Positions 57,809-63,233 of a stretch of DNA of 64,000 nt are shown piece after piece. The notes under the pieces are model-generated. The model was not told the DNA's origin and did not search any database. It saw only the letters and a list, made by a program, of their open reading frames with translations. Positions within the stretch are counted from its first letter, which is position 1, and each line of letters begins with the position of its first letter. The stretch is from Gemmatimonadota bacterium (lineage in GTDB: Bacteria; Gemmatimonadota; Gemmatimonadetes; Longimicrobiales; Gaopeijiaceae). Location of the stretch: contig JAUIEJ010000009.1 of the NCBI GenBank assembly GCA_030428885.1, forward strand, positions 1 to 64,000, read 5' to 3'. A program made the position numbers and the translations under genes.

Positions 57809-59317
57809 CTACCGGCGGGCACCGCGGCTCGCCACCGGGATCGACACGGGCTCGGCGCCCAGAGCCTCGAACTCCTCGATCCGGACGTATCGCGGCGTGG
57901 CGGACCTCTCCGAACTCACGGCCGACGGGGGGTCGTTGGCGATCCTGAGTCCCTCCGTGATCGAGGCCCATTGGAGACCCGGCAGGAGGAACAGACCGCC
58001 GGGGGCCGCTCCCCGACTCCCACCGACGAGGCGGATCCACTGCCCGTCCGCATCGATCAGGCTCGTCCTCAGGCTGGATCCGTCCGACAGGGATCCACCG
58101 TCGAGGAGCCGAAGGGCCCGCGACTGCACCATCACCGTCTCCCCGTTGTGTTCCGGCCGAACACCCAGGACCTGCACCTGGGCTCCCCCCCCGACCCACC
58201 GGGTCCCCTCCCGGATCGCGAGCCGAGCCCGTTCCTCCGGCTGCAGGACCCGGACGTACCCGTCGACCCGGAGCCGGAGGTCACCGGCCTGAAGCGCTTC
58301 GAGCTCATCGACGCGCACACTCACCGACCTGATGGAGGGCAGCACGACGGGGTAGCGTCCGTCCGGTGCTCCCACGGGTCGGGCGTCCCGAATCACCACC
58401 CCCCGTCCAAACGATTCGATCCGGCGCTTCGGCGCTCCATCGGGCCGGACCAGCAGGACGACCGGGTTCCGCAGTTCGTAGCGCCGATGGGCGGAGGCGC
58501 CCTCCACTGCGAACCCGACGGTCACCACTCCCCGGGCGTTCCGGTGGTCGAGGCTCATGTTCCGCACCCAGGCGACCACGGCCTCAGGCCGAACCTCGGG
58601 GGGAATCGGCCGTCCGAGGCCCTCGAACGGGGCGGGCGGACCCAGACGACCCAACCCCGCCGCCGCCACGACCCCGACGGCGGCCACGGCGAGCCCCGGT
58701 CCGACCCGCCGACGGCCGTAGACCGCGTACCAGGCTCCGACCCCACCGAGGGCCAGCGGGAGAGCGACGGCGATCGTCGACCGGGAGGTGGGCACGGTGG
58801 AGGTGAGGACCTGCGTTCCCATCCACGCCAGGGCACCGACGATCACGAACGACCGGATGTCCGGGCTCGCCACCATGAGCGCGGCCAGGACTCCGACGAG
58901 TCCGAGTTGGAGGCCGACGCCCCGGGCCACCGTCTCGACCCGGTCGGCCGTCGTCAGGTCGAGGGGGCCCAGGGCGACGAAGGTGAGGAGGGCCGGGACT
59001 ACAACGAGAAGCATCGCGACGAGGATCCCCTTCGCGGTGGCCATGGCCGACCTCGACAGGGGCAACGTCGGCCAGTGCGCGTGGGGGCCCGTGGCCGGCG
59101 ACGACTGGACGATCCACGCGGCCGCCAACGCGCCCAAGGGCAGCCAGAGTGTCGACGCGAACTGCAGCCACGCGCCCACCTGCGCGACTCCCATGAACGC
59201 CTCGCGCCACGCCGCCACCGCAGCCGCCCCGGACACCGCCAGGAATCCCAACAGCAACCACCCGTGCCGCCGCACGTCCCATCGCAGCACGTGGACCACC
59301 TGCTCCAGCCAGGTCAT
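57809..59317 (-). CDS. ABC transporter permease-like protein of the YtrA-type operon
   Basis: A 502-residue membrane protein. The N-terminal 240 residues hold six hydrophobic helices (GWLLLGFLAVSGAAAVAAW, LLVVVPALLTFVALGPL, AVALPLALGGVGAWYAVYG, VAAVGVVAAAGLGRL); the C-terminal 260 residues form a soluble, probably extracytoplasmic, beta-rich domain of unknown family. It overlaps the ATPase gene by four bases (ATGA), as expected for a subunit pair. The architecture, six helices plus a large exterior domain, is unusual for a YtrC/D-type permease. Confidence 0.78.
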   Translation of the reverse strand: MTWLEQVVHVLRWDVRRHGWLLLGFLAVSGAAAVAAWREAFMGVAQVGAWLQFASTLWLPLGALAAAWIVQSSPATGPHAHWPTLPLSRSAMATAKGILVAMLLVVVPALLTFVALGPLDLTTADRVETVARGVGLQLGLVGVLAALMVASPDIRSFVIVGALAWMGTQVLTSTVPTSRSTIAVALPLALGGVGAWYAVYGRRRVGPGLAVAAVGVVAAAGLGRLGPPAPFEGLGRPIPPEVRPEAVVAWVRNMSLDHRNARGVVTVGFAVEGASAHRRYELRNPVVLLVRPDGAPKRRIESFGRGVVIRDARPVGAPDGRYPVVLPSIRSVSVRVDELEALQAGDLRLRVDGYVRVLQPEERARLAIREGTRWVGGGAQVQVLGVRPEHNGETVMVQSRALRLLDGGSLSDGSSLRTSLIDADGQWIRLVGGSRGAAPGGLFLLPGLQWASITEGLRIANDPPSAVSSERSATPRYVRIEEFEALGAEPVSIPVASRGARR

Positions 59318-60294
59318 CGGCCCCCTCCGGATCCGAGCCTCGCCCGGGCCAGTCCCACGAACACGTCCCGGAGCGACGCCCGGCGCACGTCCACCCGCTC
59401 CGCCAACGGAAACGCCTCGGCCACCCGCGCTTCGAGGTCGTCTGTCCCATGGTCCGTCACGAGGACCGAGACCCGCCGGCCCGCCCGTGCCGCCGCGAGC
59501 CAGTGGGGCGGCAGACGCGCCGGATCCACGAACGCGCCGGGGGCCATCAGCACGTCGATCTGACGGAAGCGGGCCCGGAGTACATCCATGGGCTCCGACA
59601 CCACGAGGCGTCCTCGGTCGAGCACACCGACGTGGTCGGCCAGGCGCTCCAACTCCCCGATGTCGTGGGAACACAGAAGGACCGACGTGCCTTCGTCGGA
59701 GACCGACGAGAGGACTCCCTGCACCAGGTCCTCCCGGACGACCGCATCCATGCCCGTGAACGGCTCGTCGAGGATCAGGACCCGGGGTCGGGACGCCAAC
59801 GCGAGGAGGACCGCGACCTTCATTCTCTCCCCTCTGGACATGCGGCGGATCCGGAGCCGCCGAGGGAGTCGGAAGCGGTCCCGGAGTTCGTCGGCCCGCA
59901 CCGGATCCCACGTCGGGTACAGCGGCGAGGTGAACGCCTCCAAGGCATCGAGGGTCATGGACCCGGGGAGTGCGACGCTCTCGGCCACGTACCCGACCCG
60001 GGCCCGATGCTCGGGCGGCAGGGCGTGGGGGGCGTAGCCGAGCACGGAGGCCTCCCCCTCCGTGGGGCGGAGGAGACCCACCAGGATGCGCAGCAGCGTG
60101 GTCTTGCCCGCTCCGTTCGGCCCCAGGAGGGCGTACAGCGACCCCTCGGCCACGGCGAAGTCCACGCCGCGAAGGACGGTCCGGGCCCCGTATCGATGGC
60201 TGACGTTCCGCACGAGCAGAGTCGCCGCTTCCTCCGCCATGCCGACGCCGGCCCCCGCGTCGAAGCCGTCCGCGGCGGTCCAGCGATCCCTCAT
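59314..60294 (-). CDS. ABC transporter ATP-binding protein (BcrA/YtrB type)
   Basis: A 326-residue ATPase. Walker A is GPNGAGKTT (58-66), the signature is MSRGERMK (152-159), a variant typical of BcrA/YtrB-like exporters, and Walker B is RVLILDEP (171-178) followed by FTGMD. The C-terminal 80 residues are an extra small domain. The ATG at 60294 overlaps the GntR stop (ATGA); a later ATG at 60240 would remove a low-complexity stretch. With the GntR gene and the permease it forms a YtrABC-like operon. Confidence 0.92.
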   Translation of the reverse strand: MRDRWTAADGFDAGAGVGMAEEAATLLVRNVSHRYGARTVLRGVDFAVAEGSLYALLGPNGAGKTTLLRILVGLLRPTEGEASVLGYAPHALPPEHRARVGYVAESVALPGSMTLDALEAFTSPLYPTWDPVRADELRDRFRLPRRLRIRRMSRGERMKVAVLLALASRPRVLILDEPFTGMDAVVREDLVQGVLSSVSDEGTSVLLCSHDIGELERLADHVGVLDRGRLVVSEPMDVLRARFRQIDVLMAPGAFVDPARLPPHWLAAARAGRRVSVLVTDHGTDDLEARVAEAFPLAERVDVRRASLRDVFVGLARARLGSGGGR

Positions 60295-60722
60295 CGGTCG
60301 GTTCCGGTCGGTGCGCCGGACGTCACCGACGGTCCACCCGCGCCGTCGAACAGCCGGCCCCACGTATCGGTGACGGCCGTGTGCACGTCCCGCTCCCCCA
60401 GCCCGATCCGCCGGGCCTCCACGAGCAGCCGCTCGAGGTCGTCGTCGAGGAGCGCCCGCCTCTCGGCCGAGGTGGCCGGTCCCCAGTCGGCGACGACGGT
60501 ACCCACCCCGGGCTGGACGACCAGGAGTCCGGATTCCCGGAGCTCCGCCACCACCTTGTGGGCCGTGTTGGGATTGACCTTCAGCGCCTCGCTGAGGGTG
60601 CGGACGCTGGGGAACGGAGCACCGGGAAGGAGCTCGCCCGACACCACGGCGCGGGTGGCCGCGTAGACGATCTCCCGATACGGCGACTCACCGGGACGGA
60701 ATTCGACGTGAAAGGGAAGCAT
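60291..60722 (-). CDS. YtrA-type GntR-family repressor
   Basis: A 143-residue regulator. The GntR winged helix lies at residues about 10-75: GESPYREIVYAATRAVVSGE, FPSVRTLSEALKVNPNTAHK, VVAELRESGLLVVQPGVGTV. The C-terminal domain is short, which is the mark of the YtrA subfamily of GntR proteins that control ABC exporters. Its start codon touches the operator GGTGTA-N13-TACACC with no room for a Shine-Dalgarno site, so the mRNA may be leaderless. It probably represses its own operon until the envelope is stressed. Confidence 0.9.
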   Translation of the reverse strand: MLPFHVEFRPGESPYREIVYAATRAVVSGELLPGAPFPSVRTLSEALKVNPNTAHKVVAELRESGLLVVQPGVGTVVADWGPATSAERRALLDDDLERLLVEARRIGLGERDVHTAVTDTWGRLFDGAGGPSVTSGAPTGTDR

Positions 60723-60757
60723 GGTGTACTGTGCGTACTAGTACACCTGGATGTCAA
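60723..60757 (-). promoter_or_regulatory. YtrA-type operator and -35 element of the GntR-ABC operon
   Basis: GGTGTA (60723-60728), 13 bases, then TACACC (60742-60747) is a perfect inverted repeat with the spacing of the AGTGTA-N13-TACACT site described for Bacillus YtrA. A consensus TTGACA (minus strand, 60757-60752) lies just upstream. The operator ends at the start codon. A good -10 was not found, so the exact start is open. Confidence 0.7.
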
Positions 60758-60766
60758 CCTCTTCCT

Positions 60767-61108
60767 TCAGACCCACCCCTCCCACGCCTCCGGGGCGTGG
60801 CCCACCGAGAGCTCGTTGCCGTACCGCACCAGGGGCGTCCGCAGGATTCCCGGCTCCTCGGCCAGGATCTCGAGCCAGCGGGCGTCGCCGTAGTGGGCCT
60901 GCTGGAGTCCCAGATTCCGGAAGCGCTTCGCGTCGCGGTCGATGAGGGCGTCGGTGCCGAACTTCTGGATGAACCGGCGCAGCTCCCCTTTGGAGGCGGC
61001 CTTCTGCCGGAGGTCCACGAAGTGGATCTTCACGCGCCGTTCCTTGAAGAACCGCTCCGCCTTACGGGTGTCCCGACACCCTTTCGTACCGAAGATCTGG
61101 ACCTGCAC
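60767..61108 (-). CDS. ArsC/Spx-family thioredoxin-fold protein
   Basis: A 113-residue cytoplasmic protein of the arsenate reductase-like (ArsC/Spx/YffB) family. The sequence opens MQVQIFGTKGCRDTRKAERF, with the single nucleophilic Cys11 followed by the positively charged RDTRKAERFF helix, then VKIHFVDLRQKAASKGELRR and the closing GILRTPLVRYGNELSVGHAP. Only one Cys is seen, so this is the YffB/Spx-type rather than the classical thioredoxin-coupled arsenate reductase. No arsenic genes adjoin; it precedes the YajQ gene after nine bases in the minus direction. Activity is not certain. Confidence 0.85.
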   Translation of the reverse strand: MQVQIFGTKGCRDTRKAERFFKERRVKIHFVDLRQKAASKGELRRFIQKFGTDALIDRDAKRFRNLGLQQAHYGDARWLEILAEEPGILRTPLVRYGNELSVGHAPEAWEGWV

Positions 61109-61117
61109 GGCGACCCC

Positions 61118-61618
61118 TCAGCGGTAGTTGCCGAACTGGAGTTCCACCCCCCAGTCCCCCTTCTTCAGGAACTGGATGACCTCCTGGAGCGTGTCCCGCG
61201 ACGGGGCGCTGACCCGCAGTTCCTCGCCCTGGATGGCGACCTGCACCTTCTTGAAGCCCTCGTCCTTCACGGCCTTCACGATCTTCTTTCCCGTCTCCTG
61301 ATCGATGCCCTGCTTCAGGCCCACGGTCTGACGGGCCCGACCCAGGGTACCGGTCTCCACGTCGCCCTCGTCCAGGTTCTTCACCGGGACTCCACGGCGC
61401 ACCAGCTTCTCCCGCAGCACGCCCAGAAGCTGGCCCAGCCGGTACTCGTCGTCGGCCTCGAGCTTGATGGACGCCGACTTCCGATCGAACTCCAGGGTGC
61501 AGTCCGTGCCCTTGAAGTCGTAGCGGGTGGCGATCTCCTTGTGGGACTGGTTCACGGCGTTGTCGACCTCCTGGAGGTCCACGCCGGTGGAAACGTCGAA
61601 GGAATTCGTCTTGGCCAT
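61118..61618 (-). CDS. YajQ-family nucleotide-binding protein
   Basis: A 166-residue cytoplasmic protein of the YajQ/UPF0234 family, some members of which bind cyclic di-GMP and RNA. The duplicated ferredoxin-like fold is evident: NSFDVSTGVDLQEVDNAVNQ, SHKEIATRYDFKGTDCTLEF, LKQGIDQETGKKIVKAVKDE and GFKKVQVAIQGEELRVSAPS, RDTLQEVIQFLKKGD. Length and motifs are normal. It lies between the ArsC/Spx-like gene (nine bases) and the secreted protein gene (17 bases), so the four minus-strand genes 60767-63145 may form one operon. Confidence 0.95.
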   Translation of the reverse strand: MAKTNSFDVSTGVDLQEVDNAVNQSHKEIATRYDFKGTDCTLEFDRKSASIKLEADDEYRLGQLLGVLREKLVRRGVPVKNLDEGDVETGTLGRARQTVGLKQGIDQETGKKIVKAVKDEGFKKVQVAIQGEELRVSAPSRDTLQEVIQFLKKGDWGVELQFGNYR

Positions 61619-62284: not shown

Positions 62285-63145
62285 CTACCGGCGCCCGAAG
62301 CCCCGGGGCGCACGAAACGCTCCCGTGAGCATCTGGGCGTCGAAGCCCTCCACGTGGCCGCCGGTGGCGTGGCGGTAGAGGGCCGCCGTGTAGATGCCCT
62401 GGAGCGCCGAGGCCACGAGCCCCAGCACGACGTAGCCCATGACGCCCACGGCCACCACCGGGAGGATCACGGCGGGTCCGCCGCCGAACTGGGCCGCCAC
62501 GACGATCATGGCCACGAAGACCAGGGTCCACGACATGCCCATGAGGAAGAACGCCCACCCGATCCCGAAGCTCGCCACCATCTGCTCACCCCAGGTGCGC
62601 TTGAAGAGGGCGGCGCTCTCCTTCACGGCGTCGATGGGCCCGACGTCCTTGGACACCAGCACCGGCACGGCGAGGTATGTGGCCACGGTCCACCCCATAC
62701 CCACCAGGCCCACGACGAGCTTCCCGACGAAGCCCACCCGCTCCGAGATGGCCCGGAGCACCATGCCGACGGTGGCCGAAATGGCGGCGTAGCCCAGGAT
62801 CGAGCCGATCCGGTCCATGGCGATGCTCATGCCGTCGGACACCGTGGGATCACCCCCTTCGAGGCGGATCATGGCGGCCCCCACCAGGGCGGAGTTGAAG
62901 AAGAAGATCACGGTGTACTGGACCAGGTAGAACAGGAATCCCACCACGTAGCCCAGGTAGCCGCCGCCCTCTTCGGCGAAGATCTCCCACCCCCCCGTGA
63001 GGGCCATGGGCGCGATGAAGCTGACCGCCACGAGCACCGTCGCGATGCCCGACAGCAGGGGAAACACCAGCAGCTCCTTGTCGAGCTTCAGCACGTGGGC
63101 GCTGGCCTTCACGAGGGACCACGAATTGGAGAGGGAGCCGGCCAT
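62285..63145 (-). CDS. DUF6159 integral membrane protein
   Basis: A 286-residue polytopic inner-membrane protein. It opens with SWSLVKASAHVLKLDKELLVFPLLSG, the family hallmark, then about six helices (IATVLVAVSFIAPMALTGGW, YVVGFLFYLVQYTVIFFFNS, LVVGLVGMGWTVATYLAVPV, WAFFLMGMSWTLVFVAMIVV and VVAVGVMGYVVLGLVASAL). ATG 63145 has AAAGGTG nine bases upstream. Function unknown; the family is broadly conserved in bacteria. It leads the minus-strand gene group 60767-63145. Confidence 0.82.
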   Translation of the reverse strand: MAGSLSNSWSLVKASAHVLKLDKELLVFPLLSGIATVLVAVSFIAPMALTGGWEIFAEEGGGYLGYVVGFLFYLVQYTVIFFFNSALVGAAMIRLEGGDPTVSDGMSIAMDRIGSILGYAAISATVGMVLRAISERVGFVGKLVVGLVGMGWTVATYLAVPVLVSKDVGPIDAVKESAALFKRTWGEQMVASFGIGWAFFLMGMSWTLVFVAMIVVAAQFGGGPAVILPVVAVGVMGYVVLGLVASALQGIYTAALYRHATGGHVEGFDAQMLTGAFRAPRGFGRR

Positions 63146-63233
63146 GAACGCGCACCTTTCGGAAGGGGACGGGGACGGGTTCGTCCACTCCACTCTACGA
63201 ACCAACCCCTCGGTTCTTCAATGGGACTCCCCC

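Follow-up and report, generated by a model that had tools for sequence, protein, structure and literature searches.

The best described relatives of the locus reported here are ABC transporter operons under GntR regulators of the YtrA subfamily. In Bacillus subtilis the YtrA site AGTGTA-13bp-TACACT is found in front of two operons (PMC8060467), in agreement with the form AGTGTA-N13-TACACT from which the original prediction had started, and the ytr operon responds to cell-wall antibiotics (PMC8060467, PMC12772383). In Sulfolobus acidocaldarius, YtrASa represses its own operon from a site that includes both the transcription start and the start codon, and its regulon is very small (PMC6746942). 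A long dyad with GGTG/CACC ends, GGTG-N16-CACC, is quoted in PMC6746942 for a YtrA-like regulator of Xanthomonas citri. Proteins of the subfamily have no more than two helices after the winged helix-turn-helix (PMC6746942, PMC4494728), and most YtrA regulons are single ABC operons (PMC4494728).

The stretch of DNA analysed (64,000 nucleotides, hereafter the window) contains on its minus strand a gntR gene (60291-60722) for a predicted YtrA-type repressor of 143 residues, an ABC transporter ATPase gene (59314-60294; PF00005, E 5.6e-25) and a gene for a permease of 502 residues (57809-59317). The ATG of the ATPase gene overlaps the gntR stop codon in the sequence ATGA, and the permease ATG overlaps the ATPase stop in the same manner. 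The arrangement is similar to that of B. subtilis ytrGABCDEF, with a GntR/YtrA repressor and a 25-bp site before its own ABC operon (PMC8060467). However, B. subtilis has two site-bearing operons, separate YtrB-F subunits and a MacB-like exterior domain on YtrF, while in the window the ATPase is single, the permease is fused into one protein and the operator adjoins the first codon of the regulator gene. The window does not encode the subunit set YtrB, C, D, E and F, and the transporter may work like the YtrBCDEF complex, but is not one. The position of the site bears similarities with that of YtrASa, which differs in having an archaeal BRE/TATA promoter and a 14-bp core motif with flanking half-sites instead of the long 25-bp bacterial dyad. 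The spacing quoted for X. citri is one base shorter than the GGTG-N17-CACC of the window. As in most YtrA regulons, the site is present at only one operon of the genome. The kind of operator and the autoregulation are thus already known; within the literature searched, the probably leaderless packing conserved across bacterial phyla and the permease architecture are new. The text of PMC4494728 mentions neither Gemmatimonadota nor Verrucomicrobia nor leaderless starts, and a literature search combining leaderless, GntR and autoregulation found no paper.

From 60757 to 60720 the minus strand reads TTGACA-TCCA-GGTGTACTAGTACGCACAGTACACC-ATG, in which the ATG at 60722-60720 is the gntR start codon and the 25-bp dyad (60723-60747) adjoins it directly. 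This reading confirmed the proposal that GGTGTA-N13-TACACC abuts the ATG with TTGACA upstream; the 6-bp arms given there are exact, but the true exact arms are longer and extend to 8 bp (GGTGTACT-N9-AGTACACC). The putative -35 element TTGACA (60752-60757) occupies -35 to -30 counted from the A of the ATG. The 12-base pattern has one exact match in the whole window, and with up to 2 mismatches 7 matches occur where 0.8 are expected, the six besides the exact one having 2 mismatches each. In the 5.39-Mb genome the 16-base form occurs at one place without mismatch and at three with 2, and no further place has 0 or 1. When up to 3 mismatches were allowed in a search for further operator targets, 48 places were found against 37 for a reversed-pattern control, which is only a modest excess.

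Domain, profile match and predicted fold all identify the regulator as a YtrA-type GntR protein. It matches PF00392 with E 4.3e-11 and 42.7 bits (cut-off 27), while none of the NCBIfam equivalogs reaches its cut-off. A profile of 16 orthologs matches YtrA-like structures, among them 6sbs (YtrASa, E 4e-10) and 2du9/2ek5 (E 6e-10), the latter pair being the YtrA-like protein of C. glutamicum. The structural model (mean pLDDT 74) predicts a winged helix-turn-helix made up of helices 14-27, 40-47 and 51-63 and two strands, followed by a short C-terminal part with only helices 85-105 and 110-125 (pLDDT about 53-72) and no large effector domain. Two further traits of the subfamily are present: the 25-bp long dyad with GT/AC far from its centre and, as judged from sequence only, the single-operon regulon, with one site in the genome and ATPase and permease genes downstream in the window and in the orthologs.

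Orthologs were collected in several steps. A search of the order of the window gave six close orthologs (55-73% identity) and many paralogs at about 30-43%, and a pattern-based scan of named genomes gave orthologs in an Acidobacteria MAG, a Bryobacterales MAG and about 18 Opitutae and other Verrucomicrobia MAGs. Whole-protein searches, which are independent of the N-terminal peptides, added 24 genomes from another family of the window's class and gave 15 genomes in the phylum of the acidobacterial match and 23 in that of the verrucomicrobial match, these two matches included. The motifs FPSVR and K.NPNTA are nearly invariant across the group, and its distribution is patchy, since it is absent from the sampled members of the window's own genus.

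An operator was called when a 25-mer scored at least 12/18 against NGTGTACTAG-N5-CTAGTACACN (locus L042 being counted at its abutting site), a score reached by about 1% of composition-matched shuffles (29/2600). By this measure the dyad was found in 80/85 orthologous loci of three phyla, and in 76/85 a gap of 0-3 bases separates it from an ATG, GTG or TTG downstream: 32/32 in the window's phylum, 13/16 in the acidobacterial set and 31/37 in Verrucomicrobia. In the remaining 9/85 orthologous loci a near-start dyad is absent. This retention at the same place shows best that the dyad is beyond chance, and it is the outcome of the check proposed originally, a search for the dyad upstream of related YtrA-type genes. 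Among 77 distinct sites, G4 and T5 are present in 77/77 and their mates C and A in 77/77 and 76/77. Position 2 alternates between G-C and C-G in both halves together, with 66/80 paired against a mean of 50.3 in within-group shuffles, none of 2000 of which reached as high; kinship among the sequences inflates this test, and the covariation is support rather than proof. We also looked for a specificity rule in the recognition helix, where the change of His55 to Gln and other residues vary with the base (G or C) at position 2, but phylogeny separates these groups as well, and we make no claim from it.

Symmetry next to a start codon could also be a property of the message, the dyad forming an RNA hairpin GGUGUACU/AGUACACC beside the AUG that gates ribosome access. 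A 61-nt piece does fold at -13.1 kcal/mol, but its z is only -1.4 against shuffles. Mismatches between the arms are of the G-U type in 34 cases and of the A-C type in 49; G-U is no commoner than A-C, which argues that the symmetry belongs to a DNA site and not to an RNA stem. The half-site of GntR type is invariant, and a hairpin would require a transcript start upstream of the dyad, contrary to the position of the -35 element. The hairpin reading was rejected on account of the weak fold and the lack of G-U bias, and we regard it as very improbable. Even less credence is due to the notion that another regulator binds the dyad while the neighbouring GntR protein acts elsewhere: binding by the GntR protein is a prediction, and many YtrA-like paralogs exist in the order, yet across three phyla the dyad tracks the gntR orthologs, the genome has no second copy of it, and the paralogs have different dyads, such as ACTGTTGCA...TGCAACAGT. 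Assignment of the dyad to the adjoining repressor is thus the reading that we prefer.

Several observations on related sites may be added. The dyad ACTGTTGCA...TGCAACAGT is a long dyad of a separate paralog family in the same order (L019, L020, L024, L025, L027-L031 and L034), where it lies 8-9 bases before the start and is overlapped by TTGAC-N17-TACTGT. The verrucomicrobial operators L037-L054 (e.g. L049:3465-3500) have an extra half-site-like box, CCGTCCTA or CTGTCCTA, which sits 9 bases upstream of the left arm and overlaps TTGCC; extra boxes at 7-12 nt have been reported for GntR sites (PMC4494728).

The lack of room between the dyad and the start codon had led to the suggestion of a leaderless message, and the sequence evidence is in line with it. 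Over the 76 near-start loci the first codon is ATG in 42, GTG in 33 and TTG in 1, followed by LPF or a close variant, and in 66/76 the 20 bases before this codon contain neither GGAG nor GAGG nor AGGA, so that the Shine-Dalgarno core is mostly missing. An in-frame stop lies up to 28 bases upstream in 54/76 loci (21 + 4 + 29), often as the TAG of the operator's own CTAG; an earlier start has no space there, and translation must begin at the named codon. In the window this stop is the TAG at 60738-60740, inside the operator at -18, and no start codon lies between it and the ATG. A TTGnnn with at least a 4/6 match to TTGACA is located at -38 to -34 in 29/32 loci of the window's class, a position from which transcription would start at the start codon. 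The suggestion is thus supported by the missing Shine-Dalgarno sequence, the TAG inside the operator and the TTGACA exactly 35 bases before the ATG, and most likely the gntR message begins at the start codon itself. As a control, more distant paralogous YtrA-like genes of the same order have dyads 8-26 bases upstream, and about half of them have a Shine-Dalgarno core. In the verrucomicrobial ortholog L136 the operator is followed directly by a TTG, a candidate leaderless start; no other start is possible there, and an in-frame TAG lies at -9.

The operators themselves carry a probable further trace of the promoter. Symmetry asks for C opposite G10, but 29/32 loci of the window's class have A at this place, and this yields the hexamer CATAGT, while the mirror arm is mostly nCTAGT. 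The symmetry-breaking A is position 2 of the hexamer, corresponding to the -11A of a -10 element. CATAGT, a 4/6 match, is present in 19/32 class loci and T at position 6 in 32/32, mostly with a spacer of 17-19 bp from TTGAC and 5-8 bases to the start codon. A pure binding site does not explain the asymmetry, which suggests that the dyad symmetry is broken because of the promoter -10 element. The probable -10 element of the window is CACAGT (60728-60733) in the right arm of the operator, where the family consensus is CATAGT; it has a spacer of 18 bp to TTGACA, lies 5 bases before the ATG and is a 3/6 match, and a consensus promoter scan of the window site found no promoter. CATAGT is absent from most Verrucomicrobia loci, which have ACTAGG or AGTAGA instead.

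The weak -10 hexamer of the window could be taken to mean that the dyad is an autorepressor operator while the transcript starts well upstream, gntR being translated from a leadered message independently of a Shine-Dalgarno sequence. Leadered versions do exist in nature, as in the verrucomicrobial orthologs L143 and L153, in which the dyad lies 23-34 bases upstream. This possibility is nevertheless unlikely in view of the TTGAC at -34 to -38 in 29/32 class loci, and since an upstream promoter needs no operator pinned within 3 bases of the codon, as is the case in 76/85 loci. A survey of 464 kb of the genome (264 genes by simple gene calls) found TAnnnT exactly 7 bases before ATG to be 10-fold enriched, with 7 seen against about 0.7 expected, and Shine-Dalgarno cores to be 2-3-fold enriched at 6-8 bases. 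Leaderless genes seem to exist in this genome, but as a minority. A search of the same 464 kb for leaderless promoters by strict rules gave too few matches, the gene in the window being one of only two.

The original prediction held in most respects. Overall, as read from the sequence, the dyad is very probably the operator of the adjoining YtrA-type repressor, in an autorepressed operon with a leaderless first gene and two following genes coupled through ATGA. The operator would then begin just downstream of the -35 hexamer and run through the promoter up to the base adjoining the ATG, with the -10 element in its right arm, and a bound repressor dimer would exclude RNA polymerase and keep its own operon off, i.e. 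gntR, the ABC ATPase and the ABC-2-like permease. Release of the repressor on some signal would let transcription start at the start codon or no more than about 3 bases from it, gntR being translated from the leaderless message and the ATPase and permease by coupling through the ATGA overlaps. It is tempting to speculate that the loci represent a bacterial operon class, present in three phyla or more, whose single 25-bp repressor site serves at once as promoter spacer and -10 element and, by ending at the first codon, fixes the start codon; we hold this extension to be doubtful. If true, leaderless translation, with GTG as a frequent and TTG as a single starting codon, would belong to the conserved control rather than being a side effect, and repressor and transporter could, for example, still be made when Shine-Dalgarno initiation fails. 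The operon as described offers a clean, testable model of leaderless initiation combined with control of transcription in phyla for which promoter data are scarce, and it predicts where the transcripts of more than 70 genes start, to within a few bases.

Across the loci the gene order is gntR, the ATPase gene in nearly all, and then the permease gene, often with the 4-base ATGA overlap. The statement that ABC genes follow the YtrA-type gene thus holds beyond the window, the ATPase gene being next in the loci long enough to show it, except in the partial match L055. Operator and gene order together delimit a transporter family whose permease is recognised here by no Pfam or NCBIfam model, no family being above the cut-off. 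Seven membrane helices are predicted in the model of the window permease (pLDDT 83.7), followed by a C-terminal domain of about 250 residues that is rich in beta structure (residues 246-496; 57830-58582, minus strand). Residues 1-204 resemble the six-helix ABC-2 type permeases NosY and ABCG25 with Z about 11-12, where the caution level for helical proteins is about 13, and Foldseek gives a probability of 1.00 for NosY but an E of only about 0.01. The window permease differs from both in the extra seventh helix (205-225) and the beta-rich domain. The helix at 205-225 would put the beta-rich tail outside, and the GRRR before helix 7 supports a cytoplasmic loop in the modelled topology. Orthologs mostly have 500-585 residues, of which the first 250 contain 5-7 hydrophobic segments and the others form a long soluble tail of poorly conserved sequence (33-row alignment); the exceptions in length, L051, L053 and L109, are shorter or misread calls.

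The large exterior C-terminal domain noted in the original prediction is thus present in the model, and its length and topology recur in orthologs. The remark that it is not usual in Ytr systems is only partly true, because in B. subtilis YtrF, a separate subunit, bears an exterior MacB-like domain (PMC8060467), and the difference is partly one of packaging. As relatives of the exterior domain the best rows were beta sandwiches (transglutaminase, exo-chitosanase) with Z 6-6.6, below the caution level, and none is named. Some verrucomicrobial loci have a second permease-like gene added. Upstream of gntR the minus strand of the window encodes an ArsC/Spx-like protein (60767-61108, PF03960) and a YajQ-type protein (61118-61618, DUF520), and a DUF6159 membrane protein is encoded at 62285-63205 (E 5e-63).
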